DNA from: Anaerotruncus sp. G3(2012)
GTDB taxonomy: Bacteria > Bacillota > Clostridia > Oscillospirales > Ruminococcaceae
Assembly (NCBI RefSeq): GCF_000403395.2
Contig: NZ_KE159676.1
Coordinates: forward strand, 243,363-286,655
Reading direction: 5' to 3'
DNA length: 43,293 bases
A program made the position numbers and the translations under genes. The notes under the pieces were generated by a model that saw only the letters and a program-made list of their open reading frames with translations, was not told the DNA's origin and ran no database searches. Shown piece by piece: positions 15,601 to 43,293 of this stretch (the stretch's first letter is position 1; each line of letters opens with the position of its first letter).

Positions 15601-15765
15601 TCTCAGAAGCGAATCCTTGAAGCCTACGCAAAACAGAACGGCTTTTCCAACCTCAAATGGTACACGGACGACGGATTCTCTGGGGCAAATTTCCAAAGAC
15701 CCGGCTTCCAGTCCATGCTTGCCGACATTGAAGCGGGGCTTGTGGGAACGGTTATCGTAAAAGAT
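15601..15765 (+). pseudogene. Internal fragment of a large serine recombinase
   Basis: The frame QKRILEAYAKQNG...WYTDDGFSGANFQRPGFQ...GLVGTVIVKD encodes the part of a TnpX-like serine recombinase catalytic domain just after the catalytic Ser region. It lacks both the start and everything after VIVKD, where the sequence changes to unrelated DNA (GATTGTGTTATTTTAG). A diverged second copy lies at 32756-32967 and begins at exactly the same nucleotide of the gene. The fragment is non-functional and marks two insertion junctions, one at each end. Confidence 0.8.
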
Positions 15766-21453: not shown

Positions 21454-22305
21454 ATGATAGCACTCGAACAGGTGACAAAACAGTACAGAGAGGCAACTGT
21501 ACTAAAGAACATTACCCTTTCGGTTGACGAACCTGGGATTTATTGCCTGCTTGGCAGAAATGGCGCGGGCAAGACAACACTTCTCAAGTCGATTGCCGGG
21601 TATCAAAACATTACAGACGGTACTATTCACGTTGACGGTAAAAAGATAACGACTTCCACACTGGACACAGGCGTTAGCTATATTGAAAATTTTGCAAAAC
21701 ATTTTAATCTTCCAGTCCGAAAACTGCTGCGGATTGCTTCAGAAGTAAATCCAGACTATGATTACAGCTTCGCTTCGGAAATGATGGAGCGTTTTGAATT
21801 GGACGGGAAAAAGAAGTTCAATCACCTTTCACTTGGCATGAAAACAATGGTTTCAACGATTATTTGTCTGGGAAGCAACAAAAATGTTGTTTTGTTAGAT
21901 GAGCCTGTCCTTGGCTTTGACGCAATTATGCGTGTGGAATTTTATGATATGCTGACGGAAAGTTTTCAGAAACACCCCCGAATTATTATTGTATCAACAC
22001 ATATCATTGAGGAAATCGCAAAGACAATTCAGAAGCTAATCATAATCGACAAGGGAAGTGTTCGCTTTTTCGACACATTGCAATCGGTTGAAACAAAAGC
22101 GTTCAGTGTTAGCGGACTTCAAAAAGACGTGGACGCTGCAACTCAAAACCTGCATACCATTGGGCAAGATACCGTCGGTGGTCTTGTAACAAGTTATATC
22201 TTTGATACGCCGCCGGAGCAGACCGCTTCATTAGAAATACGCCCGCTATCCTTGCAGGATTTCTTTATACAAATGGTAGGACATAAGGGAGGTACAGTAA
22301 AATGA
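21454..22305 (+). CDS. ABC transporter ATPase subunit
   Basis: A 283-residue ATPase with Walker A GRNGAGKTT (34-42), a shortened signature LSLGMKTM (about 127-134) of the kind found in export-type ATPases of the CcmA/NatA group, and Walker B VVLLDEPVLGFD (about 146-157). The H-loop His is in VSTHIIEE. The C-terminus carries an extra domain of about 80 residues. AGGAGG precedes ATG 21454. Its stop overlaps the permease start by four bases. With the divergent MerR regulator this suggests an inducible efflux or membrane-stress transporter, and the following GNAT and lipoprotein genes are part of the same cargo. Confidence 0.85.
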   Translation: MIALEQVTKQYREATVLKNITLSVDEPGIYCLLGRNGAGKTTLLKSIAGYQNITDGTIHVDGKKITTSTLDTGVSYIENFAKHFNLPVRKLLRIASEVNPDYDYSFASEMMERFELDGKKKFNHLSLGMKTMVSTIICLGSNKNVVLLDEPVLGFDAIMRVEFYDMLTESFQKHPRIIIVSTHIIEEIAKTIQKLIIIDKGSVRFFDTLQSVETKAFSVSGLQKDVDAATQNLHTIGQDTVGGLVTSYIFDTPPEQTASLEIRPLSLQDFFIQMVGHKGGTVK

Positions 22306-22949
22306 CAGCTATTTTTGCGATTGTAAAACGCTTGCTTGCAAGCAATAAAATCAGTTTCATTATAACGGCTCTTGTTGTGCTTTGCGCCACATCTTCTGGC
22401 GATGTGGTTCTAAGTAATGGAAATTACACTTGGCTGCTTGCCGTTCTAACTCCATTCTTTTTTGTGTTTTACGACTTTACGAAGCTGATACATCTGGGCG
22501 CAAGTAAAAAAGATTATTTTTACGGTTGTTTAATCAGCTATGGATTTTTGGCGTTTTGTATTTCGCTTGTCAACACAGCAATACATCTATTGATTGACCC
22601 TGCATATTCAGCGCAGACAGTTATCAATATGATGGACGTATGTAAATGGACAGAAAACGGGATTATTATTGCCGGATTACAACAAGTGTTTTTTCTGTTG
22701 CTTGCAATGGTTTTTCTCCATGTACTGCTATCTATGCAACCGTATTGGTATGGTTGGCTGGCAGACGCGGTTTTGGTTGCTATCATTTGTATTTTTACCC
22801 CGATTGTTTCGTTGAGGGGTATATTGGTTCATTTTTTCCAGATTACCATGTTTAACAGTAACGCACTTCTGCATATTGGTATCTGCCTGCTGTTAAGTGT
22901 CATGTTATCTTTTGGAGGGCTTGTGGTCTTAAAACGAAAGACTTTATAG
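22302..22949 (+). CDS. ABC transporter permease subunit
   Basis: A 215-residue integral membrane protein with about six hydrophobic helices (for example FIITALVVLCATSS, LAVLTPFFFVFYDF, FGGLVVLKRK at the end). There is no recognisable permease signature, but overlap with the ATPase gene (ATGA) and the hydrophobicity make it the partner membrane subunit. It is short for a permease, so it should function as a dimer. The base composition of this cargo block is more AT-rich than the mobilization genes on either side, indicating separate acquisition. Confidence 0.75.
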   Translation: MTAIFAIVKRLLASNKISFIITALVVLCATSSGDVVLSNGNYTWLLAVLTPFFFVFYDFTKLIHLGASKKDYFYGCLISYGFLAFCISLVNTAIHLLIDPAYSAQTVINMMDVCKWTENGIIIAGLQQVFFLLLAMVFLHVLLSMQPYWYGWLADAVLVAIICIFTPIVSLRGILVHFFQITMFNSNALLHIGICLLLSVMLSFGGLVVLKRKTL

Positions 22950-22959
22950 GGGGAGGGCT

Positions 22960-23409
22960 ATGATTAGAATAAAAGATATTGACGCAGACAATATCTTTGA
23001 TGTGTGTGAGCTGACTACAAATCACAATGGCATTGGTACGACTATGGAGAAATATTTATGCTGCAACGCAGTTTCCATAGCGGAAGCAAAATACTTTTCA
23101 GAAATGTACCCCAATGCCATTTACAATAATAACGTGCTGATTGGATTTTTTATGTATAAACGAACAGAAAATCAGCCTGACCTTGCAATTCTATGCCGCT
23201 TTATGATAGATTACCGATTTCAAAATAAAGGGTTTGGTAAAAAAGCATTTGAGCATATTTTAAGAGGTCTAAAAATTCAAGGTGTTAGAAAGGTAGTTTT
23301 GATGATAGATGACACAAACAAAATCGCAAAAAAACTATACCTTTCTTTCGGCTTTCAGTTTACAGGTAAGATTGAAAAGAACGAATATTATTATGAGTTA
23401 GAGCTGTAA
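22960..23409 (+). CDS. GNAT-family N-acetyltransferase
   Basis: A 149-residue single-domain acetyltransferase. The acetyl-CoA binding motif is MIDYRFQNKGFGKKAFEHIL (Q/R-x-x-G-x-G/A type), followed by the usual strand KVVLMIDDTNKIAKKLYLSF and a final aromatic strand. The substrate cannot be told; relatives modify antibiotics, polyamines or protein N-termini. It follows the permease by 10 bases after GGGGGAGGG, so it is in the MerR-linked cargo operon. Confidence 0.82.
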   Translation: MIRIKDIDADNIFDVCELTTNHNGIGTTMEKYLCCNAVSIAEAKYFSEMYPNAIYNNNVLIGFFMYKRTENQPDLAILCRFMIDYRFQNKGFGKKAFEHILRGLKIQGVRKVVLMIDDTNKIAKKLYLSFGFQFTGKIEKNEYYYELEL

Positions 23410-23439
23410 ATGTGACTTATCAGATATGGAGGAATTACA

Positions 23440-24096
23440 ATGAAAAAAATTATTTCACTTGCATTGTGTTTTGTATTAGGCTGTTTTGTTTTGGCGGGTT
23501 GTTCAGACAATAGCGAACCGTTTGAAGAAAAAAGCTATATACCAGATACGCAAATCAAAGAAATCAACCTTGATGTGCGGGATAGGGAAATTGAAGTGTC
23601 GCTATCAGAGGACGGACAAGTGCATATTCAATATTTTGAAAACAGTAAAGAGTATTACGATATTTCTGTTTCTGATGAAATATTGTCCATGACAAGTGCC
23701 AACAATAAGGAATGGAAAGATTACATTGGCGGGAAGGCTTCTTCGGAAAATAGGAAAATATCATTGCAGATACCAAACGAACTTTTAGATACTCTTACTT
23801 TGTCAACGACAAATGAAGATATATCGCTTCCCGCATTGACTGTAACCGGGAATATTAGCGTTTCTTCCAACGGTGGGAGCATTACATTTGAAAACTTAAA
23901 TGTTGGAAGCACTTTGCAGCTAAGCGTCAAGAACGGGAATATTTCTGGAACGATTATAGGAAGCTATGACGATTTTGCGATTCATTCAAAAATCAAAAAC
24001 GGTGAAAGCAGCTTGCCTAACAATAAAGACAGCGGCGAAAAAACGCTAAATGTATCCAGTAATAACGGTGATGTCAATATCGAGTTTGTAAGGTAA
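23440..24096 (+). CDS. Lipoprotein with DUF4097-like beta-repeat domain
   Basis: A 218-residue lipoprotein: signal peptide with lipobox VLAGC (Cys at about 21), a linker, then a beta-helix-like domain of short repeats such as NISVSSNGGSITFENLNVG and SVKNGNISGTI, ending NVSSNNGDVNIEFV. This pattern is typical of DUF4097 (adhesin-like) proteins. Family members often accompany cell-envelope stress systems, but no activity is known. AGGAGG precedes the ATG. It is the last cargo gene; the block that follows at 24119 is shared with the edge of the cargo at 33.5 kb. Confidence 0.75.
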   Translation: MKKIISLALCFVLGCFVLAGCSDNSEPFEEKSYIPDTQIKEINLDVRDREIEVSLSEDGQVHIQYFENSKEYYDISVSDEILSMTSANNKEWKDYIGGKASSENRKISLQIPNELLDTLTLSTTNEDISLPALTVTGNISVSSNGGSITFENLNVGSTLQLSVKNGNISGTIIGSYDDFAIHSKIKNGESSLPNNKDSGEKTLNVSSNNGDVNIEFVR

Positions 24097-31138: not shown

Positions 31139-31236
31139 ATGACAAGACAGACAACCCCAACACTCATTACCGCCCTATATCCGAGATTATCCCATGAGGA
31201 CGAGCTGCAAGGCGAGAGCAATTCTATCAGCAACCA
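31139..31236 (+). pseudogene. Large serine recombinase, piece 1 (catalytic N-terminus)
   Basis: From ATG 31139 (GGAGG ends 6 bases before it) the frame reads TTPTLITALYPRLSHEDELQ...SNSISNQ, the start of a TnpX-like recombinase with the catalytic Ser in YPRLS. After codon 32 the sequence becomes unrelated and stops within 19 codons. The frame continues at 32761 and again at 41104 after two insertions. Joining 31139-31236, 32761-32967 and 41104-42418 gives exactly 540 codons including the stop, a normal full-length recombinase. Confidence 0.75.
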
Positions 31237-31304
31237 AGAAAACATTTGTCAAGGGGGATTTCACCCAAAAGATGAAATCCCCCCGATAAACTGAAAGTTC
31301 TCTC

Positions 31305-32255
31305 TTATGAAGCTCGGCGCACCTCATCCCGGTAGAAACCGTCACCCTTAGACACCGTAATCAGTTCGCCCTGGTCGAGCATTGCCTTGATGCGTTTGGC
31401 CAGACACCAGTCACCAATACCCAGTCGCTCACGGCCCAGTACCTCGCCGATGAGTTGGGCCACCCGGAAGACCCCATTGGGAATGTGGGCACGGATAAAT
31501 GGATCGTAGAAATCCTCCCCCACACTGACCAGCCGCCCGTTGACCACAGCCCGTAGGGGGGCGTTCTCTTTCCGCAGTCCTGCCCACTCCATGGCAATAG
31601 CCCGGCGAACACTCTTGGGGATTTCCCGCTCCAAGGGAAGGAACGCCGCCCAGTCCCCTGGAACCAACTCCCCCCAGCTAAGACAGGACTGTACTGTACC
31701 GTCCTCCCTCGGCATCCACTGAGGCAGTTCTAAGGCGGTCACGGGGCAATCGAAGCTCCGAAGCAGCCAGCACACTTCGTAAAACCCACACAGGGACCAA
31801 GGTGCGGCGGGGCTGTACCAGATGCGTACTGCCTCGCCGTTTTCTGCCGTCTCCAACAGTCGTAACCGATCCTGCTGACGCTGCTCCCACATCTGATCAC
31901 GCTGTTGGGCGTAGTCCTCAGGGGTACTGTCTGGGAGAGGGAAGTCGCCCCCCAACCAGGCGGTAAGCAGATTAAACCGAGCCTTATCCACATTGGGTCC
32001 GCTAAGGGGACCCATATCCAGACCGTAGGAAGGACACAGTACATCTCCAGGACTGCCACCCACAGGTCGTGCCCGACGTTTCTCCTCCTCCCACTGGGCC
32101 TTGAGTTTTGCCATGGCCCGCTCCTGTTCCTCCGGTGTGGTCTCGCCTTCTCCAAAAATGAACCCGATAGGTCCGTCCTCGCTATTGATGCAGGAACAGT
32201 GGGTAGCCAGCTTCAACGACCCGCGTTCGCTGTCGGAGAAAACAACCTGTAGCAT
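31305..32255 (-). CDS. DUF1835/DUF3658 domain protein
   Basis: A 316-residue soluble protein. The N-terminus MLQVVFSDSERGSLKLA is the DUF1835 start, a Rossmann-like part follows (CWLLRSFDCPVTALELPQW), and the C-terminal about 90 residues (WAGLRKENAPLRAVVNGRLV, then YDPFIRAHI, ending KRIKAMLDQGELITV) match DUF3658. Firmicutes proteins with this pair are widespread, but their activity is unknown. AGGTC-type ribosome sequence lies upstream of ATG 32255. It is the only gene in the 1.5-kb insert and runs opposite to the interrupted recombinase, so it is the insert's cargo. Confidence 0.65.
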   Translation of the reverse strand: MLQVVFSDSERGSLKLATHCSCINSEDGPIGFIFGEGETTPEEQERAMAKLKAQWEEEKRRARPVGGSPGDVLCPSYGLDMGPLSGPNVDKARFNLLTAWLGGDFPLPDSTPEDYAQQRDQMWEQRQQDRLRLLETAENGEAVRIWYSPAAPWSLCGFYEVCWLLRSFDCPVTALELPQWMPREDGTVQSCLSWGELVPGDWAAFLPLEREIPKSVRRAIAMEWAGLRKENAPLRAVVNGRLVSVGEDFYDPFIRAHIPNGVFRVAQLIGEVLGRERLGIGDWCLAKRIKAMLDQGELITVSKGDGFYRDEVRRAS

Positions 32256-32526
32256 GGTAAGACCTCCATATCAAACTCTTATTTATCGAATTGACACGAA
32301 CCAAGTATACCATCACCGCAAGTAACTTTCAACCCCAGTTATAGATGCAGATAGTAGTAGCAAGCAATGCACCGGTATATACCTAGTGCAGCTTGTTGGT
32401 GTCCGAAGACCCCCAAGCCCCCGGTGCATCGGTGAAGCTCCGCCCGATGCACAAGCCGCCGTTGGCGTCTGCTGGCCTGTCCATACTGGGCAGGGAAGGG
32501 ACGCTCGGCGGGTCTCCCTGGTCGAA

Positions 32527-32651
32527 CGCACGACTGCCGCAGGCAGTACCACCGCTCGCTTGCGGGTGGTGAGTAAGTGCGCTCTTCGAGAGGACCGGCA
32601 GAGAGAACGGAGCGCCCAGGTCATCCCCGGACGCTCCCGCTTCGGTTCCCT
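32527..32651 (+). other. Second MOBQ-type oriT-like sequence (copy of 340-435)
   Basis: The plus strand carries GAGTAAGTGCGCTCTTCG (32571-32588), preceded by the hairpin ACCACC...GGTGGT (32549-32570) and by CTGCC-GCA-GGCAG (32534-32546). Read in reverse complement, this follows the same order as 340-435: an AGGAGCGTCC-like run, GCGCTCCG, the TAAGTGCGC core, the hairpin and the CTGCC repeat. There is no relaxase in the insert, so mobilization would need one in trans, such as the MobA/MobL protein at 629-2320. Sequence similarity is by eye and function is inferred. Confidence 0.6.
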
Positions 32652-32760
32652 CCTGCTGGTAAATCACCATCCCTCCATCCTGTGCCATTCTGCCACAAAT
32701 GAACCGCAGTCAATGTAATGTAGTGGCTTGGTGAAACCACCCTTTATACATTACATCTCA

Positions 32761-32967
32761 GAAGCGAATCCTTGAAGCCTACGCCAAACAGAACGGTTTC
32801 CGCAATCTGAAATGGTACACGGACGACGGTTTCTCCGGCGCAAACTTCCAAAGACCCGGTTTTCAAGCCATGCTTGCGGACATTGAAGCGGGGCTTGTGG
32901 GAACGGTCATCGTAAAAGATATGTCGCGGTTAGGGCGAAACTATCTGCAAGTGGGAATGTACACAGA
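32761..32967 (+). pseudogene. Large serine recombinase, piece 2
   Basis: The frame KRILEAYAKQNGFRNLKWYT... through FSGANFQRPGFQAMLADIEA to VKDMSRLGRNYLQVGMYT continues piece 1. At the GA dinucleotide 32966-32967 it enters the left end of the 8.1-kb element. The next recombinase codons (DVIFPSLGCRF) are found after the matching GA at 41102-41103. Piece 2 is similar to, but clearly diverged from, the fragment at 15601-15765, so it is not a recent duplicate. Confidence 0.8.
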
Positions 32968-32999
32968 AACATTATGGACAAGGACACAAAAGGCAGACC

Positions 33000-33530
33000 A
33001 TGAAATGGGGCTGCTGACAACAAATAAAGGTTGAATATCCGGCACAGGGAAAGTGCGGGATATTCAGCCTTTTTGTTGTTTGTTGGGGTTTCCAAAGGGG
33101 CTTGCCCCTTGGCACACGACTTTGCTTGCAAAGTGTAGTGTGTTATACGCTCTGTCAGCGTTGCTGCGAAAATGGGATTGCCACCGGGAAAGGCAATAGC
33201 ATTTGGAGCGGCAGGAAAACAGGGCTGTGATTGCGTGACGTGGAGCCGCAAGCGCAAGACTGGTCTTATCAGCAGACAGGGCGTATATGGAACTTCCGTT
33301 CCACGCCGGACTATGAGACAAAGTGTCCCAAACGGATAGCCACACTCACAAAAAAGAAGACGGATTTTTCTCTCAAAATTGAAATGGGCAGGAAAGCCAT
33401 TTTAGGGCTTTCCCGCCTTGACTACCCATCAGCAAAGACAGGCGGGACTGTCAGCGGCGGCGCATTTATGCGCCGTTCATCTTGACCGTTGACTGGCTCG
33501 CCTGGCTTTGCTATTTCCCCGATAGATTAG
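33000..33530. other. Left end region of the 8.1-kb element: terminator, repeats, cargo boundary
   Basis: No gene is firmly supported. A hairpin with T-tail (GGTTGAATATCC, 33029-33040, against GGGATATTCAGCC, 33057-33069) can stop read-in from outside. A palindrome CCAAAGGGGC-TT-GCCCCTTGG follows at about 33091-33112, close to the type of repeats seen before mobC at 25.4 kb. An ORF at 33231-33485 encodes 84 residues without ribosome site or family and is probably chance. The region ends with the cargo-boundary block (33431-33495). Confidence 0.5.
33431..33495 (-). repeat. Cargo-boundary sequence, copy 2
   Basis: On the minus strand it starts CAGTCAACGGTCAAGAT, runs through a GGCGC-type hairpin with GCGCC, and ends CTGACAGTCCCGCCTGTCTT. 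This is the counterpart of 24119-24180. Here too it abuts the 3' end of a cargo lipoprotein gene, about 40 bases from its stop. Confidence 0.6.
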
Positions 33531-33534
33531 GAAA

Positions 33535-33981
33535 TTATTTGAGTGGCTTTTCACGTTCTTGAACATAATCATTTTCAAAGCTAATAGAAATTATTGTATT
33601 TTTTATTCCTGTCCCTGTAAAACATACAGCATATTCGTCATCCTTTTTTAGATTGTCCAGTGAAATGGAAAAAGTAGTTAATTCAACTGCTCCGTCCCAT
33701 GTATTACTCCATAAAATCTCATTTGTTTTATTGTTCTTGATTTCTAAAATTCCTTTTTCTCCATCCATTTCCAATTCACATTTTGCTGTCACATTCTCTA
33801 AATCATTTGATACACAAAATAGCTTTTCATTGATAAATGGTTCTGTATCATCATAATTTTCATTTAATTGCATTTCGATTTTTACACCATCTGCGGTATT
33901 GGCATTGGCTATGGAACTTTTGCATGATGTTAAGGCCGCCATACTAATAAGTGCAATACATAAAACAAGAATTTTCTTCAT
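33535..33981 (-). CDS. Lipoprotein of unknown function
   Basis: A 148-residue lipoprotein: MKKILVLCIALISMAALTSC with the lipobox LTSC (Cys 20), followed by a beta-rich domain (VTAKCELEMDGEKGILEIKN, then FSISLDNLKKDDEYAVCF). I recognise no family. AGGTATTT-type sequence gives a usable ribosome site. It is the left-most cargo gene of the 8.1-kb element and is transcribed toward its left end, with the HTH regulator 33 bases upstream in the same direction. Confidence 0.65.
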   Translation of the reverse strand: MKKILVLCIALISMAALTSCKSSIANANTADGVKIEMQLNENYDDTEPFINEKLFCVSNDLENVTAKCELEMDGEKGILEIKNNKTNEILWSNTWDGAVELTTFSISLDNLKKDDEYAVCFTGTGIKNTIISISFENDYVQEREKPLK

Positions 33982-34014
33982 AAATACCTCCGCATACTTT
34001 GGTTTTCTGCTCTT

Positions 34015-34815
34015 TTATTTTCTCCCCCGCTGTGGGGTTGGATTTTTCAGCAAGTCCGATTTCTCCGCAATCTTTTTCAGCCACTTCTTTTCTTCTTCTG
34101 ACAGCTTCTTCAAATTCAATTTGAGCTGTTTGCAGATAAAAGCCATAGATGCTTGCTCCATGTCATCGTCCTCGCTGGCGGCTTCGTCTGCGGCCTGCAA
34201 CAATCCTTTCAGCGGGTTATCCTCCGGGACGCTGAAAAAATCGTCCTTGTGGGTTTCCCGCAGGTCAAATGCTATATTGTTTATGTCCTGCTGTATCACA
34301 TAGCGGCAAAAGCTGTCATCGTCAATATGGGCGGCGATAAGCTGTCTTAACTGCGGGTCGGTCAAGCCGGAATTATGTTGCTTCATAATGGTTGCGCTCA
34401 TAGCGTCCACAATGGCGTTTGCGCCCTGCACCTGCTTCCCGGCAATTCCATTCACATAAATTTCAAGGTCAGCCATCAGCCGGGGAAAATCCGGGTGCAC
34501 CGCCAGTTCACACAAGAGGGAATTGTCTACCAACCCACTTTTCAATAGTTCAATCATATCATCACTCAAACACAGGTCTGCAAGATCGGCGTTTGGGTAA
34601 TTTTTTGTTTCGGACAGCCCCAGCAGATAGTCGGCAGTCACGCGGTAAAATTTCGCCAGTTTGATAAGAGCATAGTGGCTGATATCCTTGAAGTCATCCG
34701 CTTCATAACTGCCCAGCGCAGACTTGGAGAGGTGCGTTTGCTCCGCAAGCTGTTCCAGTGTCAAGCCACGCTCCACACGCAGGTCTTTTAAGCGTTCTTG
34801 TGTGGATAGTTCCAT
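34015..34815 (-). CDS. XRE-type helix-turn-helix regulator
   Basis: A 266-residue regulator. The Cro/C1-type HTH is at residues 6-65 (ERLKDLRVERGLTLEQLAEQ, THLSKSALGSYE, then KFYRVTADYLLGLSET). The C-terminal 200 residues are helical and acidic in the middle (AADEAASEDDDMEQ), with no recognised enzyme fold and no peptidase HExxH motif. ATG 34815 is preceded by AAGGAGGGAG. Regulators of this build are frequent in cargo of gut elements and may control element transfer; the target is unknown. Confidence 0.8.
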   Translation of the reverse strand: MELSTQERLKDLRVERGLTLEQLAEQTHLSKSALGSYEADDFKDISHYALIKLAKFYRVTADYLLGLSETKNYPNADLADLCLSDDMIELLKSGLVDNSLLCELAVHPDFPRLMADLEIYVNGIAGKQVQGANAIVDAMSATIMKQHNSGLTDPQLRQLIAAHIDDDSFCRYVIQQDINNIAFDLRETHKDDFFSVPEDNPLKGLLQAADEAASEDDDMEQASMAFICKQLKLNLKKLSEEEKKWLKKIAEKSDLLKNPTPQRGRK

Positions 34816-34874
34816 GCTCTCCCTCCTTGTCCACTCTATAAAATAGGAAGTTGTTACATTGTGGGGTATGTTTA

Positions 34875-35381
34875 TTATACATGTTTTGTTGTTTTTACTC
34901 TTGATTGTGTAATTTCTTCAAATAGTTGTTTTTCGTTTAGGTCTTTAAAAACTCTTTTTGGAATTAACGTATATATTCGTGGTGCTTGAATTAAATAATA
35001 AAAATCATGGCTTTCCCATAGTGCAGAGTAAATATCCCACTTCATTTCTGATTCAATGCTTTGTGTTTTAAATTTAATTGTTTCTTTTGAGAATACCAGC
35101 GTATATTCCTCATGATATTTTGCAGTTTGCTTGAATTTCAGTATAGGCATTAGAATATATAAATAGCTTCCCAATGCAGTTACAACAATTACCAATCCAA
35201 ATATTAAAATACTAAATATGCTAAAAGAGGTGAACAGCATATAAACTACCGACAGCAGCAAAAATACAGTGACTAAAGCAATATCATATTTATGTATAAT
35301 TTTACTAGAAATTAAATATTGCCTTTCTGCTCTTATATATTCACTTTGAGTATATTGAAATCTTAATTCTACTGTTTCCAA
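34875..35381 (-). CDS. YcxB-like membrane protein
   Basis: A 168-residue protein with two adjacent transmembrane helices (IALVTVFLLLSVVYMLFTSF and IFGLVIVVTALGSYLYILMP) and a soluble C-terminal domain carrying the YcxB-like pattern EEYTLVFSKETIKFKT...WDIYSALWESHDFYYLI...IPKRVF. The family is widespread in Firmicutes with no known activity. The low GC content matches its neighbours to 36.8 kb and contrasts with the mobilization genes. It lies 49 bases downstream of the DUF6194-like gene on the same strand. Confidence 0.7.
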   Translation of the reverse strand: METVELRFQYTQSEYIRAERQYLISSKIIHKYDIALVTVFLLLSVVYMLFTSFSIFSILIFGLVIVVTALGSYLYILMPILKFKQTAKYHEEYTLVFSKETIKFKTQSIESEMKWDIYSALWESHDFYYLIQAPRIYTLIPKRVFKDLNEKQLFEEITQSRVKTTKHV

Positions 35382-35430
35382 AAGTATACCTCCATTCGTT
35401 GTATAAATAATCTTTGTTACAACTTCGGAT

Positions 35431-35880
35431 TTATACTTTTCTTTTCTTAAATTTTTCTACGGCATATTCATAAGCTTCTTGAATAAATGGTTTTAATTTT
35501 TCAAAGGTTTTATCTGACGGATTTAATACAGAAATCCAGCCCATCCAAGCATATACAGGATGTGGAATTATCTTATTTAATTCTGTGAAATCATAATTCA
35601 TACTTACTATTTCTCCCGCACTTGGTCTTTTAGGTACATCACTAAATAATTCTATAAAAGTTTTTTTGCGAATTCCTAAATTAACTCTGTATACATTTTC
35701 TCTATCCAAATTTGAGCCGTTGTCATTATCTCCATCTTTTTCTTTTATTGTAAGTATATACACGCCTCTTTTTAAAACATGATTGGGATTATAAAATATT
35801 CCCTTTTCTCCCCAGCTATCTACCAAAACTGTATCTTTTAAATTTTTAAGACAATACTTTAATATTTCTTCTGGTTTCAT
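35431..35880 (-). CDS. DUF6194-family protein
   Basis: A 149-residue soluble protein. Landmarks are GEKGIFYNPNHVLKRGVYIL, TIKEKDGDNDNGSNLDR, VYRVNLGIRKKTF, and HPVYAWMGWISVLNPSDKTF, which match the DUF6194 group of Bacilli and Clostridia. The function is unknown. I prefer ATG 35880 (MKPEEILKY), which has AAAGG 6 bases upstream, over the in-frame start at 35895. It lies between the AraC-type regulator and the YcxB-like gene, all three reading leftward. Confidence 0.7.
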   Translation of the reverse strand: MKPEEILKYCLKNLKDTVLVDSWGEKGIFYNPNHVLKRGVYILTIKEKDGDNDNGSNLDRENVYRVNLGIRKKTFIELFSDVPKRPSAGEIVSMNYDFTELNKIIPHPVYAWMGWISVLNPSDKTFEKLKPFIQEAYEYAVEKFKKRKV

Positions 35881-35939
35881 ATTTTTACCTTTCAAATTCT
35901 AATTCATCATGCTCTATACGAACTGGAATTTATAGCTAT

Positions 35940-36839
35940 TCAAGCCGTTAGTATTACTGGAACAGCTATCCTTGCTCCCGTACTTGTATCTGCACCGAAG
36001 TTAAAACTTGGGGCTATATCATATGCGAATTTATAACCATATACCGCAGGATTGTATTTTCCTATCGCTGCATATGTGATTTCAATCGCCTTACAGAAGT
36101 CCTCTTCATTCTCGTATGGTTCACTTTGAAAATAAAGCATGATACATTCTGGAAGTTCCACTGTTTTATATGTTTCTGGAAGTTCTTTATCATAATCTAA
36201 TGGCACTTCAACGCCTGCTGCTATCTTTGAAAAACCATTTTCGACTAATTTGTCTGGTAATTCAATCAAAGCAGCAGGTTCAAATTTTTCTGGAATACTA
36301 TTTAGCAGACCTTCCCATTCACAGCCAACTTCTTCGCAATACGAAAAATAATCTTGTGCATGGTGTGACGGGAGATAAATCAACTTCCTTTTTTCACGTT
36401 CTTTAACAGTAATCATACAAAAACTTAAATCATTACCCATAAATAATTCCTCCTTATTTTTAAACAAAGCATAATAGTGACTAATCGGATATTGTATGAA
36501 TAATGGAATAGCAATCTTTTTTTCACGATATACAGAGGGATTGATATGAAATTTTTTATAAAAGGAACGCGAAAATCCCTCGTGCGTTTTATAATGGCTG
36601 TTCAATGCGACTTCCAAAATTGTTTTTTTTGTATTCAATAATTCATTTGCGCTATCCGTTAAACAAACTGCACTAACATATTCTTGTAATGTTTTGTTCA
36701 GATACTTCTTGAAAATTCTGTCAACTTGTCGCCTTGAATACCCAATCTTAGAACAGATATCATTTATATTGAAATTAGCATCTTTATGATGTATGCGTAT
36801 ATAGTCCTGTATTTTCTGTACCGTTTCTATTTCTCTCAT
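35940..36839 (-). CDS. AraC-family regulator with GyrI-like C-terminal domain
   Basis: A 299-residue regulator. The AraC-type double HTH is at residues 1-100 (FNINDICSKIGYSRRQVDRI, then ILEVALNSHYKTHEGFSRSF and FYKKFHINPSVYR). The remaining 180 residues form a GyrI/BmrR-like ligand domain (KLIYLPSHHAQDYF, SKIAAGVEVPLDY, LPECIMLYFQSEPYENEEDF). This N-terminal HTH plus effector-domain build is like Rob/TetD-type regulators that sense small molecules. The upstream spacer contains GACAAA-TTGTCA-TTTGTC (36898-36915), a candidate operator. It probably regulates the two downstream cargo genes or itself. Confidence 0.82.
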   Translation of the reverse strand: MREIETVQKIQDYIRIHHKDANFNINDICSKIGYSRRQVDRIFKKYLNKTLQEYVSAVCLTDSANELLNTKKTILEVALNSHYKTHEGFSRSFYKKFHINPSVYREKKIAIPLFIQYPISHYYALFKNKEELFMGNDLSFCMITVKEREKRKLIYLPSHHAQDYFSYCEEVGCEWEGLLNSIPEKFEPAALIELPDKLVENGFSKIAAGVEVPLDYDKELPETYKTVELPECIMLYFQSEPYENEEDFCKAIEITYAAIGKYNPAVYGYKFAYDIAPSFNFGADTSTGARIAVPVILTA

Positions 36840-37210
36840 TCAATCATACCCACCTCTAATATACATAATTAACAACGTGCTTATCTTGATTTATTTAGAC
36901 AAATTGTCATTTGTCGCTTTGCTGTTTCCATTCTACCACAATTCCGAGAGCGTGGAAATAGAAAGTTTTCCGGGCTGATTTCCGACATTATGGATATACG
37001 GGACGGGCGGTCATTTAGGTGTAGACTTATCTTAGTTCATCGATGAGCCGCACCTTGAAAACAGAATGACCGTTCGAAAGGCGTTTCCCGGCAGGGGAAG
37101 CAACGCAAGGAGCCAGTTTCGGGACAACTTGTCCCGAAGTCCGGGGAGCGTGCCAACGTCGGAAAACCTTTCGGAGAGAACGGCAGCGAAAAAGCAAATG
37201 GAGGAAACGC
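36840..37210. other. Divergent spacer with palindromes, possible MobV-element oriT
   Basis: A 370-base stretch with no supported gene. An inverted repeat GACAAA...TTTGTC (36898-36915) lies near the AraC-type gene. A perfect 10-base palindrome, TTCGGGACAA-C-TTGTCCCGAA, lies at 37118-37138, followed by GTCCGGGGAGCGTGCC. The latter sits about 70 bases before the Cys-rich VLP gene, at the start of the mobilization genes, so it could be the oriT or a regulatory site. I cannot match it to a known nic sequence. Confidence 0.4.
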
Positions 37211-37624
37211 ATGAGAGATAATCCATATAAACGACTGCCACCCATAGAGCGCAGACCGGACGGTTCCCTCTACTGCATGAACCCGGCGCAGAGGAAACAG
37301 GCAAACGCCCTTATCCGGCGGGAGTGCTGTAATTGTGAAAACGGGGCTTGTATCGCCCTTGGCGACTGGGACAGCCACACCTGCCCGCAGATGATTTCTT
37401 TCTCGGTCTGCTGCAAGTGGTTCCGTTGGGCGGTCTTACCACTTATGGGGACGCTGGAAGCGGCGATTTACCGGAATAAGGATCTGAAACGCTGTGAGGT
37501 CTGCGGCGGTGTGTTCGTCCCAAAATCCAACCGAGGGAAATACTGCCCGGACTGTGCCGCCAGAGTTCACAGGCGGCAGAAAACAGAAAGTGAACGGAAA
37601 AGGAGGTCGAGCGTGGACAGTTAG
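37211..37624 (+). CDS. Cysteine-rich VLP domain protein, copy 2
   Basis: A 137-residue homologue of the protein at 28090: RRECCNCENGACIALGD, then CCKWFRWAVLPLMGTLEAAI with the VLP-type motif, and CEVCGGVFVPKSNRGKYCPD, a CxxC...CxxC zinc-ribbon pattern, followed by a basic tail. The order VLP protein then RepA is the same as in the other module. GGAGG precedes the ATG. A role in replication or DNA binding is an inference from context only. Confidence 0.8.
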   Translation: MRDNPYKRLPPIERRPDGSLYCMNPAQRKQANALIRRECCNCENGACIALGDWDSHTCPQMISFSVCCKWFRWAVLPLMGTLEAAIYRNKDLKRCEVCGGVFVPKSNRGKYCPDCAARVHRRQKTESERKRRSSVDS

Positions 37625-37735
37625 GGGCTGAAAAGTCCTTGATTTATAAAGCGTTCAGAGGGCAGAACCGGAAGAAGTGGTATAAAGTATCGCCCTCCCC
37701 TGAAAATGCCTTTCTAACCGTCCACAAAGCATACT

Positions 37736-38131
37736 ATGACAAGCATGATTTATATTCATCAGCCAGGAAAGGCGTCCAGCTTCACCCGGCTCCCCAATTT
37801 TCTCTTTGAAGCGCCCACATTCCAGCCCTTATCCAACGAAGCAAAGCTGCTGTATGCCTTTATCCTGCGGCGGGCGGAGTTATCCCGGAAAAACGGGTGG
37901 GCGGACGAGTACGGTCGCATTTACCTGTATTATCCCATTTGCGAGGTGGTTGCCCTGCTCCATTGTGGGCGGCAAAAAGCAGTCAACACCTTGCGAGAGT
38001 TGCAGTATGCGGAGTTGATTGACATTAAGAAACAGGGCTGCGGAAAACCCAATCGCATTTATCCAAAATCTTATGAAGCGGTTTCAAACACCGACTTTAA
38101 GAAATCCGATTATGGTACGCGGTCGAATTGA
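37736..38131 (+). CDS. RepA_N-type replication initiator (short form)
   Basis: A 131-residue protein made of the RepA_N winged-helix domain only: FTRLPNFLFEAPTFQPLSNE, LLYAFILRRAELSRKNGWAD, YLYYPICEVVALLHCGRQKA, then KQGCGKPNRIYPKSYE. It lacks the long C-terminal part seen in the 28586 gene, so it is either a minimal initiator or a truncated one. The frame ends cleanly with no homologous tail downstream. There is no strong ribosome site at ATG 37736. It precedes the MobV relaxase gene. Confidence 0.75.
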   Translation: MTSMIYIHQPGKASSFTRLPNFLFEAPTFQPLSNEAKLLYAFILRRAELSRKNGWADEYGRIYLYYPICEVVALLHCGRQKAVNTLRELQYAELIDIKKQGCGKPNRIYPKSYEAVSNTDFKKSDYGTRSN

Positions 38132-38304
38132 AAACCGTACTCGACAAGTACGATAATCAATCCTCTTGAAGTACGGAAACTGGACGGTATATAGAAATAC
38201 AAAGATTAAAACGATTGATTTATATCTATTTCATTCCTATCCTATCAGAGATAATTTTGGCGGGGAAACCCGCTGGAAAGGAAGGGAACGGGGAAAGGAG
38301 TTTC

Positions 38305-39246
38305 ATGGCACAGCACGCAATTTTGCGGTTTGAAAAGCACAAGGGCAACCCGGCAAGACCGCTGGAAGCCCATCACGAACGGCAAAAGGAACAGTACGCC
38401 AGCAATCCCGACATTGACACCAGCCGGAGCAAGTACAACTTCCATATCATTAAGCCAGAGGGTAGATACTACCACTTTATCCAGAACCGCATTGAACAGG
38501 CAGGGTGTCGCACCCGCAAGGACAGCACCCGGTTTGTAGATACGCTGATTACCGCCAGCCCGGAGTTTTTTAAGAAGAAGTCCCCAAAGGAAATTCAAGC
38601 GTTTTTCCAGCGAGCGGCGGACTTCCTCATTGAAAGAGTGGGCAAAGAAAATATCGTGTCGGCGGTGGTTCACATGGACGAGAAAACGCCACACCTGCAT
38701 TTGACCTTTGTTCCGCTGACACAGGACAACCGCCTGTGCGCCAAAGAGATTTTAGGCAACCGGGCGAATTTGACAAAATGGCAGGACGATTTTCACGCCT
38801 ACATGGTGGAGAAATACACAGATTTGGAGCGTGGGGAAAGCGCCAGCAAGACGGGCAGGAAGCATATCCCCACCCGGCTGTTCAAACAGGCGGTTTCCCT
38901 CTCCAAACAGGCAAGAGCCATTGAAGTCACCCTTGACAGCATTAACCCACTGAACGCCGGAAAGAAGAAAGAGGAAGCCCTCGCTATGCTGAAAAAATGG
39001 TTCCCGCAGATGGACAACTTCTCCGGGCAACTGAAAAAGTACAAGGTCACAATCAATGGCCTTTTGGAAGAAAATCAGCAGTTGGAAGCCAGAGCCAAAG
39101 CCAGCGAAAGCGGCAAAATGCAAGACCGTATGGAACGGGCGAAGTTAGAAAGCGAACTGCACAATATCCAAAGACTGGTTGAGCGTATCCCGCCGGAGGT
39201 GCTGGCAGAACTGAAACGGCAGCAGCATTGCAGAAAGGAAAGGTGA
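38305..39246 (+). CDS. MobV-family relaxase (Mob_Pre)
   Basis: A 313-residue plasmid recombination/mobilization protein. The N-terminus AILRFEKHKGNPARPLEAHH is typical of MobV/Pre. The metal-binding motif is HMDEKTPHLHLTFVPL (about 123-138), in which the HxH pair should hold the metal. The C-terminus is a coiled coil (KVTINGLLEENQQLEARAKA) for dimerisation. ATG 38305 has AAAGGAG 7 bases upstream; the longer frame start at 38215 is not supported. It should nick an oriT on this 8.1-kb element and lets the element be mobilized by a helper. It is the third relaxase class in the window. Confidence 0.88.
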   Translation: MAQHAILRFEKHKGNPARPLEAHHERQKEQYASNPDIDTSRSKYNFHIIKPEGRYYHFIQNRIEQAGCRTRKDSTRFVDTLITASPEFFKKKSPKEIQAFFQRAADFLIERVGKENIVSAVVHMDEKTPHLHLTFVPLTQDNRLCAKEILGNRANLTKWQDDFHAYMVEKYTDLERGESASKTGRKHIPTRLFKQAVSLSKQARAIEVTLDSINPLNAGKKKEEALAMLKKWFPQMDNFSGQLKKYKVTINGLLEENQQLEARAKASESGKMQDRMERAKLESELHNIQRLVERIPPEVLAELKRQQHCRKER

Positions 39247-39250
39247 TTTT

Positions 39251-39445
39251 ATAAGTAACAGTATCAGATACAAGAAAGAAACCGAAATCGTGACTTTTCA
39301 GGGAAAGGAAATCACGCTGGAAAATCTCTCCCCAATATTCACGCCGGAGCAGGAAGCGGAGAAACGCCGGGAGCTGGAACAGCAGCTTTATGAGGTGTTC
39401 CGCAAGTACGCCGACAAGCGGCAGAACGAGGAAGCCGGGGCGTAA
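39251..39445 (+). CDS. Small protein between relaxase and recombinase, apparent ATA start
   Basis: An ORF of 64 codons plus stop, reading SNSIRYKKETEIVTFQGKEI...LSPIFTPEQEAEKRRELEQQ and ending in a charged helix, lies directly after the relaxase stop. Its coding look (phase, codon use like neighbours, long amphipathic helix) is good, but the codon where translation should begin is ATA (39251), after AAAGGTGA. The next in-frame start-like codon is GTG 39290, which would drop 13 residues. It resembles small proteins that precede recombinase genes in related elements; excisionase-like or regulatory roles are possible but unproven. Confidence 0.5.
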   Translation: MSNSIRYKKETEIVTFQGKEITLENLSPIFTPEQEAEKRRELEQQLYEVFRKYADKRQNEEAGA

Positions 39446-39463
39446 GGTTTTCCGAAGCCATCG

Positions 39464-39492
39464 TTGATTTGCGGGGCTGCTGGCGGTATAAT
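39464..39492 (+). promoter_or_regulatory. Strong sigma-A promoter of the intact recombinase
   Basis: TTGATT (39464-39469), a 17-base spacer and a perfect TATAAT (39487-39492) lie 47 bases upstream of the recombinase ATG. This is the best promoter match in the window. The 5' leader it produces contains a hairpin covering the ribosome site. Confidence 0.7.
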
Positions 39493-39505
39493 GAAACTGT
39501 CAGTA

Positions 39506-39532
39506 GCTCCGTTTCTTTTTTAGAAAAGGAGC
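39506..39532 (+). promoter_or_regulatory. Hairpin sequestering the recombinase ribosome-binding site
   Basis: GCTCCGTTTCT (39506-39516) pairs with AGAAAAGGAGC (39522-39532), 10 of 11 positions, across a 5-base T-rich loop. The right arm contains the Shine-Dalgarno AAGGAG, 7 bases before ATG 39539. When folded, the ribosome site is hidden, so translation should be low unless the hairpin is opened or translation is coupled. Confidence 0.6.
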
Positions 39533-39538
39533 GACAAT

Positions 39539-41050
39539 ATGGATAATCGAATAGACGCGATCTATGCAAGACAATCGGTGGACAAAAAGGACAGCATTTC
39601 CATTGAAAGCCAGATTGAGTTTTGCAAATATGAACTAAAAGGCAGTAACTGTAAAGAGTACAAAGACAAAGGGTATTCCGGGAAAAATACGGAGCGTCCA
39701 GAGTTCCAGCAGCTTATGAGGGACATCGAAAGCGGACTTGTGCGGAAAGTAGTGGTCTACAAACTGGACCGTATCAGCCGTTCCATTCTCGACTTTGCGA
39801 AGATGATGGACTACTTCCAAAAGTATGAAGTGGAGTTTGTGTCCTCTACGGAAAAGTTTGATACCTCCACCCCGATGGGGCGGGCTATGCTGAATATCTG
39901 TATCGTGTTCGCCCAGCTTGAAAGGGAAACCATACAGAAGCGGGTGCAGGACGCATGGCACTCCCGCTGTCAGCGGGGTTTCAAGATGGGAGGGAAAACA
40001 CCCTACGGGTTTCGGACAGAGCCGTATGTGATGGACGGGGTGCGGACAAAGAAGTTGGTCATTGAGCCGGCAGAAGCGGCGTTTGTGCGGCAGATGTATG
40101 AAATGTACGCAGACCCGCAGGTGTCCCTGCATGACATTACAAAGAAACTGACAGCGGACGGTATGCGTACCTATCATGGCAGGCCGCTGTCGAGGGCAAC
40201 TTTGAGCGTTATCCTACGCAACCCGATTTATGTCATGGCTGACCTCGACATATACGAGTTCTACAAAAGCCAGGGAACGGATATTTACAATAACGCCGCC
40301 GACTTTGCGGGGACAAACGGCTGTTATTACTATCAGGGCAAGGGGAACACCGAGGACAAACATAAACACCTGCAAGGGCAGACGCTGGTGCTTGCTCCCC
40401 ACGAGGGCTTTATCCCCTCCGAACTGTGGCTAAAATGCAGAAAGAAGCTGCTTGCCAGCCATACCTACCAGCCCGCAAGGAAAGCCCGGAACACTTGGAC
40501 AGCGGGAAAAATCAAGTGCGGAAAATGCGGTTATGCGCTCATGTCGGCACACTCCAACGGTATCCTCTATATGCGCTGTACCGTCCATGCGGACAGCGGG
40601 GCTTGTCCCGGCTGCGGGTGTGTGAAGTTGCACGAACTGGAAGCGGTTGTCTATGGGGCGATGGTAAAGAAGCTGAAAGATTTTAAGACGCTGACAGGAC
40701 GGAAAAAGGCGGCGAAAATCTCCCCAAAGCTGACAGCGAAGCGGCTGGAACTGGCGCAGGTGGAGAGCGAGATTGAAAAGCTGCTTGACACGCTGACAGG
40801 CGCAAGCCCGGTTTTGCTCTCCTACGTAAACAGCAGGATTGAGGAACTGGACGCAAAGCGGCAGAGCATTTCCAATGAGATTGCAAAATTGTCTGCGGAC
40901 GCTGTGCCAGCCGAAAAGATAGAAAGCATTTCCGGCTATCTGGACGATTGGGAAAATGTCAGCTTTGAGGACAAGCGGCAGGTAGTGGACGCACTGATAA
41001 CCGTTATCCGGGCGACCAATGAGAAAGTAGAAATCGAGTGGAAAATCTGA
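39539..41050 (+). CDS. Large serine recombinase, intact (TnpX/TndX-like)
   Basis: A 503-residue site-specific recombinase. The resolvase domain (1-150) has the catalytic Ser13 in AIYARQSVDK, then GYSGKNTERPEFQQLMRDIE and the YKLDRISRSILDF active-site region. The recombinase domain (about 165-280) has KTPYGFRTEPYVM. A zinc ribbon (CGKCGYALMSAHSNG ... CPGCG) and a C-terminal coiled coil follow. No frame breaks or missing catalytic residues are seen. It lies 52 bases from the right end of the 8.1-kb element and should excise and insert it at GA-containing sites. Its site here is inside another element's recombinase gene. Confidence 0.92.
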   Translation: MDNRIDAIYARQSVDKKDSISIESQIEFCKYELKGSNCKEYKDKGYSGKNTERPEFQQLMRDIESGLVRKVVVYKLDRISRSILDFAKMMDYFQKYEVEFVSSTEKFDTSTPMGRAMLNICIVFAQLERETIQKRVQDAWHSRCQRGFKMGGKTPYGFRTEPYVMDGVRTKKLVIEPAEAAFVRQMYEMYADPQVSLHDITKKLTADGMRTYHGRPLSRATLSVILRNPIYVMADLDIYEFYKSQGTDIYNNAADFAGTNGCYYYQGKGNTEDKHKHLQGQTLVLAPHEGFIPSELWLKCRKKLLASHTYQPARKARNTWTAGKIKCGKCGYALMSAHSNGILYMRCTVHADSGACPGCGCVKLHELEAVVYGAMVKKLKDFKTLTGRKKAAKISPKLTAKRLELAQVESEIEKLLDTLTGASPVLLSYVNSRIEELDAKRQSISNEIAKLSADAVPAEKIESISGYLDDWENVSFEDKRQVVDALITVIRATNEKVEIEWKI

Positions 41051-41103
41051 CGGGCTAACCTCCGGCGTACATTATCCTTTTGTGCTCTTGTCCAGAATAG
41101 TGA

Positions 41104-42418
41104 CGTCATTTTCCCTTCCCTCGGATGCCGGTTCGTATCGGTTCTGGACTGCCTGGACAGCGAGGGGGACAACACCGATATGCTGCACTTCCGCAGTCTG
41201 ATGAATGACTACCATCTCAAGGACCTGTCCAGCAAGGTCAAGTCAGTGCTTCATGCCAAGAAGAAAAGCGGCCAGTATCTTGCCGCCTACGCTCCCTACG
41301 GATACCGCAAGAGCGAGGAGGACAGACACAAGCTGGTGATTGACGGGGAATCCGCCGCTGTTGTGCGGCAGATATTCCAGATGCGTCAGTCCGGCATGGC
41401 CTATGGGAAAATCGCCGCCGCCCTGAATGAGAAAGGGATTCTCCCTCCCCGCTGGTACTGGGCGGTCCATTACGGAAATGGCAGCTGCAAGTATTCGCGG
41501 CTGTGGGCTTACGCAACCGTCCGAAGCCTTCTGAACGATGATGTTTATGCCGGTACGCTCACACAGAACTGCACCGGTTCCCGTTCCTATAAGGATAAGA
41601 CCATGATAAGGAAACCGGAATCGGAATGGATTTCCCATGAGGGCGCGCACGAGGCGATTATCGGGCCGGAGCTGTGGGAGGCTGTCCAGAAAATCAATCA
41701 GGCGGCGAAACAGATTTCCGCTAACAATACGCCGCCCCAAGCATCTCTGTTTACCGGAAAGTTGGTCTGTGCGGACTGTGGGCATCCTCTGGTTGCCGCC
41801 CGCGAAACACAGCGCCGGAAAAATGGCACTGTCAAGCACTATACTTCTTATTTCTGCTCCCGGTTTGCCACTACCGGACATAGCGTTTGCTCATGGCACC
41901 GGATTTTTGAGATCAGCTTGAAAAACTTGGTGCTGAGTGAAATCCGGGCGCATGGAAAAGCGGTTGCAGCCGATGAAGCCGCTGTACTGGATAAGCTGAA
42001 ACAGCACATCCAATCCGCAAGCGCCGCACAACAGGAGGATAGCCGACAGGAAATCAGCCGTTTGCGGCGGCGTTTGGAGGAGTTGGAACAGATCACCGCA
42101 AAACTTTATGAAGATAAGGTAAGCGGGGCAATCAGCGGCGATTCCTTCTCGGTTCTGATTCAAAAGAACGAGCAGGAACGCATCCAGAAATCGGAACGCC
42201 TGGACAGCCTGTTAGCCGGGGAACGGAAAGCCCAGCAGGACATCGCCAATATCCACCAGTGGGCCGGAACCATCCGGCAGTATCTGGACTTGCAGGAACT
42301 GAACCGGGAAATCATTGAGGAACTGATTGACCGCATTGAAGTTGGAGAACGGACCATTATTGACGGTCAAAGACACCAGGACATTAAAATTTACTACCGC
42401 TTTGTTGGGCTGGTGTGA
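41104..42418 (+). pseudogene. Large serine recombinase, piece 3 (C-terminal part)
   Basis: After GAC at 41102 the frame reads VIFPSLGCRFVSVLDCLDSE, MLHFRSLMNDYHLKDLSSKV, the recombinase domain (YAAYAPYGYRKSEED-like, residues written QYLAAYAPYGYRKSEED), the zinc ribbon (CADCGHPLVAARETQ), the coiled coil and a normal C-terminus ending IKIYYRFVGLV. The catalytic N-terminus is missing here and is found as pieces at 31139-31236 and 32761-32967. An internal ATG (41180) could still give a protein, but without the catalytic serine. This is the third piece of one 539-residue gene. Confidence 0.8.
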
Positions 42419-42552
42419 TCGGGCGAAAAAACGCCTGACCGCATCAGCAGCCAGACGAAAACATTCTGTAACAGTAGCGATATTTGATTGTTGCACACTG
42501 ATTTGTCGAATTGGAGAGAAATTAGCAGTTTACCCCTCCCAAATGCCTCGTG
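42419..42552. other. Right end region of the interrupted-recombinase element
   Basis: The short gene-free span between the stop of recombinase piece 3 and the point (about 42552) where leftward recombinase homology begins. By position this should contain the right terminus of the element whose recombinase was split. No clear inverted-repeat partner is visible in the window, so its other end is probably outside or lost. Confidence 0.35.
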
Positions 42553-42980
42553 TTCTTAAAAATGTTACGCAAGGGGGCAAAATCATTGTCGCCCTGTGCG
42601 CTGTCAACGCCGTCATTGATAGCAATAAAACGGACGTTTTTCTGTGGGAAAATCATTTCCGTATAACGGCCCACCTCCACAAAATCCCTGCCCAGGCGGG
42701 AAAGGTCCTTTACCAGAATCAGGTTAATCAGGCCATGCCTTGCGTCCTCCAGCATTTCCAAAAATCCGGGCCGCTGAAAATTGCCGCCGCTGTACCCATC
42801 GTCCTGATAGGTCTTGACCTCGATCCAGCCGTTGAGCATGACGAATTTGGAGAGGATTTCATATTGGTTCTCAATGCTCACCGATTCATCGCTGGGGATA
42901 TAGCCCTTCGCTTTTGCGGAATTGGAGGCGTCATCCACACTCAGGCGGCAGTAGATACCGACTTTATATTGCTTCGCCAT
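42553..42980 (-). pseudogene. Leftward serine recombinase, N-terminal part only
   Basis: From ATG 42980 (MAKQYKVGIYCRLSVDDASN) the frame covers the catalytic domain: Ser in YCRLS, YQDDGYSGGNFQRPGF, LVKDLSRLGRDFVEVGRYTE and FIAINDGVDSAQGDNDFAPL. After RNIFKN homology ends, and the frame closes nine codons later. The rest of the gene is not in the window. It is another recombinase that has been used as an insertion target. The stop of the next gene upstream (43272 side) overlaps its start. Confidence 0.75.
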
Positions 42981-43293
42981 AATCCTGCCCCCTTTCCTGT
43001 GCCAGCGCCCCGTCCACATTCCCGACATAGCGGTAGTAGACCTTGACCTCACAAATCCGCTGCCCGTTGACCTTCTGGGTATCGCCAACCTCGATCCGGT
43101 CTACCAGTTCAAAGAGAATGGTTTCGTCCAGTTCCGAGATTTCGGTATAGCGCCGGATAATTTCCAGCCAGCGGTCGGTATCCACCTGGTTTTCCAGGTG
43201 CGCCCGGACTTTCCTTTCCAGTTCCGGGACTGCCTCCGCCTTTTCTGCCCGTTCCGCTTCATATTTCTGCATCAGGGTCTGAAATACCGTCTG
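42964..43293 (-). CDS. C-terminal part of another leftward serine recombinase (runs off window)
   Basis: The minus-strand frame encodes a coiled-coil and the usual recombinase C-terminus (RYTEISELDETILFELVDRI, then QRICEVKVYYRYVGNVDG). The start is beyond base 43293. Its stop overlaps the start of the recombinase at 42980 by 17 bases, so the two were a tandem pair, as known for elements that encode two or three serine recombinases. I cannot judge whether the missing part is intact. Confidence 0.7.
   Translation of the reverse strand, partial: QTVFQTLMQKYEAERAEKAEAVPELERKVRAHLENQVDTDRWLEIIRRYTEISELDETILFELVDRIEVGDTQKVNGQRICEVKVYYRYVGNVDGALAQERGQDYGEAI

Follow-up and report, generated by a model that had tools for sequence, protein, structure and literature searches.

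Two large serine recombinase genes broken and rearranged in an Anaerotruncus genome suggest mobile elements that have integrase genes as their main insertion target

Integrative and mobilizable elements (IMEs) that encode serine integrases have been described in the maff2, snf2, and traG genes of integrative and conjugative elements (ICEs) of the Tn5252 superfamily (PMC5704250, PMC5357655), and IME_Rho_tet targets MAFF2 open reading frames (ORFs), a gene family of which it hits numerous diverged members (116 of 256 in MAFF2; PMC12904643). ICEs with serine-integrase triplets lie in traG, mutT, or hsdM (PMC4701971), Tn6104-Tn6106 are nested in Tn6103, where they occupy ORFs 1743 and 1776 (PMC3158075), and large serine recombinases (LSRs) with a DUF4368 domain are presented as a multi-targeting clade (PMC10083194). 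Here we analyze a stretch of 43,293 nucleotides from Anaerotruncus sp. G3(2012) (G000:C20:243363-286655, hereafter the window; genome of 3.6 Mb in 24 contigs), in which a mobilizable element, X, and one end of a second element, E, adjoin broken LSR genes (G, C, and L numbers designate genomes, contigs, and loci). Two distinct LSR genes have very probably been rearranged here, and E and X very probably belong to lineages that insert mainly into LSR genes, each lineage at a codon of its own.

The first of the 2 genes, N_A, starts at position 31139 and is presumably the integrase gene of the ICE resident at approximately 16–31 kb, ICE genes of the left part of the window being those for ParB, VirD4/TraG, a relaxase, and RepA_N. 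The catalytic domain of N_A matches the TnpX structure 2mhc, and the N_A, N1A (see below), and X recombinases all contain the Resolvase, Recombinase, and zinc-ribbon domains that mark them as LSRs. On contig C7 of the same genome (L161), an N_A-type gene runs uninterrupted through its 540 codons, and a second unbroken one, with the same order of 4 parts, is present in Sporofaciens musculi (genome of L049; L145/L128). In L029, where E sits in an N_A-type gene without the inversion described below, parts 1–3 are likewise consecutive. In the window, N_A is cut into 4 parts by 3 insertions (a 1.5-kb insert, X, and E) and one inversion (Table 1); without the 1.5-kb insert it reads AGCAACCA/GAAGCG (a slash marks a border). 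The fourth part, on contig C22, starts immediately after the opposite end of E, and C22 would be the far side of the E found in the window.

The first-pass annotation of this DNA had proposed a single TnpX-like gene cut into 3 pieces by 2 nested insertions of 1.5 and 8.1 kb. The open frame on which it relied was confirmed piece by piece, without joining the three: the pieces comprise 98 + 207 + 1,315 = 1,620 nt, that is, 540 codons including the stop, or 539 residues. The translations are MTRQ..ISN for piece 1 and KRIL..VGMYT for piece 2, and piece 3 provides, from 41105, 437 stop-free codons followed by a stop at 42416-42418; correct phase at both joins is expected by chance in approximately 1 of 9 cases. 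Both inserts are present, and pieces 1 and 2 (N_A parts 1 and 2) truly belong to one gene, split exactly between adjacent bases of the uninterrupted relatives. However, the alignment to these relatives continues from piece 2 not into piece 3 but into 42657-42556 on the minus strand and then into C22, so that a third insertion (E) and an inversion had been overlooked. Piece 3 is the tail of the second gene, N1A, the integrase gene of E, whose head we call N1. An unbroken N1A, consisting of the N1 head and a piece-3-type tail, is found on contig C12 of the same genome, and the homology of piece 3 to it begins right behind the GA end of X. Among 78 loci with this tail (77 relatives and C12), 62 show its start and 16 were unreadable; the head was of the N1 type in 54 of the 62 and of the piece-2 type in none. 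The other 8 had neither head, with an X-type end in L030, L057, L061, and L092 and an unassigned sequence in L039, L081, L083, and L101. Relatives with names are mostly Lachnospiraceae, Oscillospiraceae, and other Clostridia, and many of them are mouse-gut isolates. The full-length N_A and N1A genes are only 33% identical, which places pieces 1–2 and piece 3 in different recombinases, the outcome that the first-pass annotation had itself named as incompatible with its proposal. One gene in 3 pieces is ruled out by the unbroken N_A genes together with the head counts, and we give it practically no credence even with its 3 pieces open in one phase.

The borders account for the open frame. N_A runs up to TACACAGA and then into X, and X ends in ..AGTGA/CGTCATTTTCCC, where piece 3 starts. 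On the minus strand, the N1 head reads ..TATACGGA/AATGATTTTCCC, continuing into N_A part 3, and the intact N1A of C12 reads ..TATACGGACGTCATTTTCCC across the site. The exchange falls on a GA dinucleotide that occupies one and the same codon in the 2 genes, and both reciprocal junctions are in the window. The inversion has swapped the halves of the 2 genes at this codon, which explains the open frame: the phases agree because the borders sit at homologous codons of related genes and not because the pieces are one gene. The rearrangement of N_A and N1A, the seamless insertions with their 2-bp cores, their targets, and the inversion can all be read from the DNA sequence.

Could the inversion be an assembly chimera, with part 3 in reality beside part 2 and the integrase of E intact? 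The N1/N_A junction was found without mismatch only at this locus among 35 genomes (other matches, with 2–3 mismatches, are mostly natural N1A or N_A sequences), and the assembly is a draft with copies of E on several contigs. We nevertheless regard a chimera as improbable, since both breakpoints lie at the GA core of X, in the same codon, with no long repeat and approximately 8 shared bases, which is not a usual site of assembler error. For a genuine inversion, the likely agent is the recombinase of X, which would cut at that GA and could act directly, between an end of X and an unoccupied site, or by way of 2 X copies, one of which later left. The latter, two-step route, with homologous recombination between 2 inverted copies of X before one departed, is a serious possibility although not the one we favor: X-type elements do occur at the same GA in both host genes (N1A-type in L030, L057, L061, and L092; N_A-type in L067), but the route requires 2 insertions and one excision, and the locus contains a single X.

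We then consider where E inserts. E has 2 tandem LSR genes at one end (3 loci examined), with DUF4368 present as in the multi-targeting clade. In G004, a single contig holds both ends of E, separated by approximately 45 kb and flanked by the 2 halves of an LSR gene, and 6 ORFs scanned (L132/L133) include those for a VirD4/TraG coupling protein, a TraG-type ATPase, and a CHAP protein. A coupling protein and a transfer ATPase between the ends are as expected of an ICE; neither is seen in the window, which holds only one end of E. From the ends, an attP core of GTGTTC-AA-GAACAC can be deduced, and E entered N_A in the Asn codon of RNIF-N-E-W, with core AA. The left ends of E in its own genome (C22, C6:892, and C20:79361) all run straight into LSR tails, each a different one. 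The end of E was found at 47 loci, of which L033 was dropped as the end was not reached; 41 of the 46 readable junctions are inside an LSR gene and fall on the Asn codon of the motif F-N-E-W/M (39 called by profile, with an LSR match of E-value below 1e-5 and a junction of identical codon frame, and 2, L035 and L069, by a short fragment). The same junction was seen in 13 of 20 distant relatives of E (44–77% identical). The 38 target domains long enough for single-linkage clustering, a method that differs from that of PMC10083194, form 25 groups at 90% identity and 20 at 70%.

Across the 41 targets, the invariant bases of the site fall on codon positions 1 and 2 (−4, −10, and −16 in 41/41) and third codon positions from −3 to −21 are at most 59% conserved (−24: 73%); several first and second positions vary too, and much of this pattern reflects how conserved the gene family itself is. 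With a matrix of the 37 unique used sites, the median leave-one-out score was 30.5. Six intact N_A-type sites scored 38–42 and the 2 integrase genes of E itself 12.9 and 7.1. Because 6 of the 37 used sites also score below 20, self-avoidance by E amounts to a tendency, and the low scores of its own integrases could result from descent alone. The 5 junctions outside LSR genes scored between −40.0 and −1.3.

Element X has the GA core at both ends that is typical of Tn4451/TnpX-type elements; GA is the 2-bp core of TnpX. It encodes a mobilization protein (MobV), and no transfer-channel domains were found in 7 further X ORFs scanned, as expected of a mobilizable element. Junctions were read for 36 copies, including that of the window; 12 of 20 relatives from one X search (48–62% identical) and 2 of 32 matches of another, which had no locus, were left out. 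Eleven copies are at least 74% identical to the LSR of X; the right junction could be read in 9 of them (not in L180, with 28 bp, or in L181, which is cut). Six of the 9 lie in LSR genes at YT/GA (the window, L165, L166, L167, L168, and L179). X-type ends occur at the same GA also in L010, L030, L057, L061, L067, and L092, 6 loci that were chosen through the gene of E; L092 and L166 share one genome and may represent the same insertion. In the sister group of X (59–67% identical), an LSR gene was found at the junction in 0 of 25 copies (L190 with 57 bp only). A class-wide search among 391 genomes returned close relatives of X in its own genome only. A strictly LSR-specific X is not supported by the junctions found elsewhere. 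As a separate observation, ORFs resembling an ABC-F ATPase (by eye) are present in X-type elements within the integrase gene of E (L030 7878-9470 and L057 2720-4309).

Several observations weigh against lineages that insert mainly into LSR genes or against the rearrangement itself. Junctions lie outside LSR genes for 5 of the 46 copies of E (L044, with 128 bp left, L046, L049, L057, and L087) and for 3 of the 9 close copies of X (L108, L122, and L164); 7 of the 20 distant E relatives lack the junction, including L078 (50 bp left) and L090 (368 bp left); the targets of E merge into 3 groups at 50% identity; C22 is linked to the E of the window by homology, because E runs into the contig ends; and a single draft assembly is the basis of the locus. 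Insertions located elsewhere, together with 13–68 LSR-type matches per genome in 10 genomes and the DUF4368 clade being described in PMC10083194 as multi-targeting, would fit E and X being ordinary promiscuous LSR elements that strike LSR genes merely as common ones. We consider this very unlikely. LSR genes make up an estimated 0.6–1.7% of such genomes, by which approximately one hit or fewer would be expected in 46, and not at one codon; moreover, the sister group of X shows 0/25. We propose to call an element an integrase-gene hunter if it is inserted for the most part at a single homologous codon of LSR genes; by the above counts, E and the subgroup of X appear to be such hunters.

Table 1. 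Features of the rearranged locus. Positions are those of the window unless a contig is given; a dot stands where no strand applies.
Feature	Position	Strand	Remarks
N_A part 1, catalytic N-terminus	31139..31236	+	Aligns to unbroken N_A on C7, L161 4031-3934
1.5-kb insert	31237..32760	.	Minus-strand ORF 31305-32255 (DUF1835/DUF3658); genome contains related copies with different cargo
N_A part 2, ends in GA core	32761..32967	+	L161 3933-3727
Element X, 8,136 bp, mobilizable-element type	32968..41103	.	Left TACACAGA/AACATT, right AGTGA/CGTC; one GA core copy included
X RepA_N protein	37736..38131	+	Pfam RepA_N
X MobV relaxase	38215..39246	+	Pfam Mob_Pre; NCBIfam MobV above cut-off
X large serine recombinase	39539..41050	+	Resolvase, Recombinase, Zn_ribbon_recom domains
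Tail (C-terminal part) of N1A, inverted	41104..42418	+	97% nt identity to tail of intact C12 gene
Inverted segment, 1,554 bp	41104..42657	.	Two reciprocal junctions at GA
Attachment end of E, ..CTCGTGTTC	42419..42557	.	Core TT (AA on minus)
N_A part 3, after YT-GA to RNIF + Asn core	42556..42657	-	L161 3726-3625, directly after part 2
Head of N1A (N1)	42658..42980	-	ATG at 42980
rec0, second recombinase of E, C-terminal piece	42964..43272	-	DUF4368; homology to L027 lost just past window end
N_A part 4	C22:1632-2849		L161 3629-2396; few bases shared with part 3 are the core region

The described systems share several traits with this locus. Like the maff2, snf2, and traG IMEs and IME_Rho_tet, E and X are LSR elements that occupy a fixed position within a conserved gene carried by other mobile elements; unlike them, they target the integrase gene itself, with 2 LSR lineages at 2 codons, and the attacker E is itself attacked by the X type. 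The triplet ICEs resemble E in having tandem LSRs at one ICE end and in disrupting genes, once in another ICE, whereas E has 2 tandem LSRs (in the 3 loci) and another target. Tn6104-Tn6106 and Tn4451/TnpX parallel the case of X as nested, mobilizable LSR elements with a 2-bp core, although the ORFs occupied by Tn6104-Tn6106 are not integrase genes. The DUF4368 clade shares with E the domain and the many target gene clusters (the 20 groups at 70% for E). The targets of E, however, are one gene family at one codon, and E is therefore specific rather than loose. No report of LSR genes as a standing target was found in the open PMC literature (supplements, most subscription papers, and preprints were outside this scope); as far as these searches show, the integrase gene as a target, 2 lineages, and 2 codons are new.

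What would such insertions do? Hunters may exploit a gene family that has many members in a genome and that the cell can do without, and a seamless insertion with a 2-bp core would switch off the integrase of a rival element until excision; the insertion probably inactivates the target integrase, and excision would restore it. The first-pass annotation had suggested a host element disabled and frozen in place. Since N_A is cut in 4, N1A in 2, and rec0 loses homology, both the resident ICE and the E of the window look disabled in cis; the unbroken genes of C7 and C12 might substitute in trans. More tentatively, and we think this rather doubtful as a whole, hunting could be a standing strategy of at least 2 LSR lineages of gut Clostridia, in which the integrases of rivals are locked reversibly, hunters are themselves hunted (X-type elements in the integrase gene of E), the integrase genes of E match its own target poorly, and crossovers at the shared codon combine catalytic heads with other DNA-binding tails to give new integrases.

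Some further observations concern the surroundings of these genes. At the right edge, rec0 is truncated (window 43293 and beyond, L013): approximately 1.3 kb of L027 is gone and 260 bp of other sequence is present instead. The 1.5-kb insert (also L015-L018) belongs to a small family with common ends and differing cargo ORFs, a GNAT-like one (named by eye) in the C12 member; it has 11 DNA matches in its own genome, 4 of them nearly full length, this copy perhaps among them, and the flanks of the family suggest a 2-bp CA core. A second N_A-type fragment (15604-15765) starts at the exact base where part 2 starts (CA/GAAGCG) and sits behind an end resembling the left end of the 1.5-kb insert, reversed. 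Inside the ICE region, a low-G+C block at 21454-24096 with ABC ATPase, GNAT, and DUF4097 ORFs looks like separate cargo. No RNA family reached its gathering score across the window, and none of 20 window ORFs compared with NCBIfam reached a cut-off for drug resistance.

The locus offers a concrete case of mobile elements competing by disabling one another's integration enzyme, and the targeting of LSR genes may be the reason for the multi-targeting appearance of some DUF4368 integrases. It also presents an attachment site that tracks a series of conserved codons by way of the wobble positions, as well as a naturally occurring exchange of head and tail between 2 integrases at a single dinucleotide. 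The in-frame fit of fragments is no proof of one gene where the break sites are sites of recombination between homologous genes.

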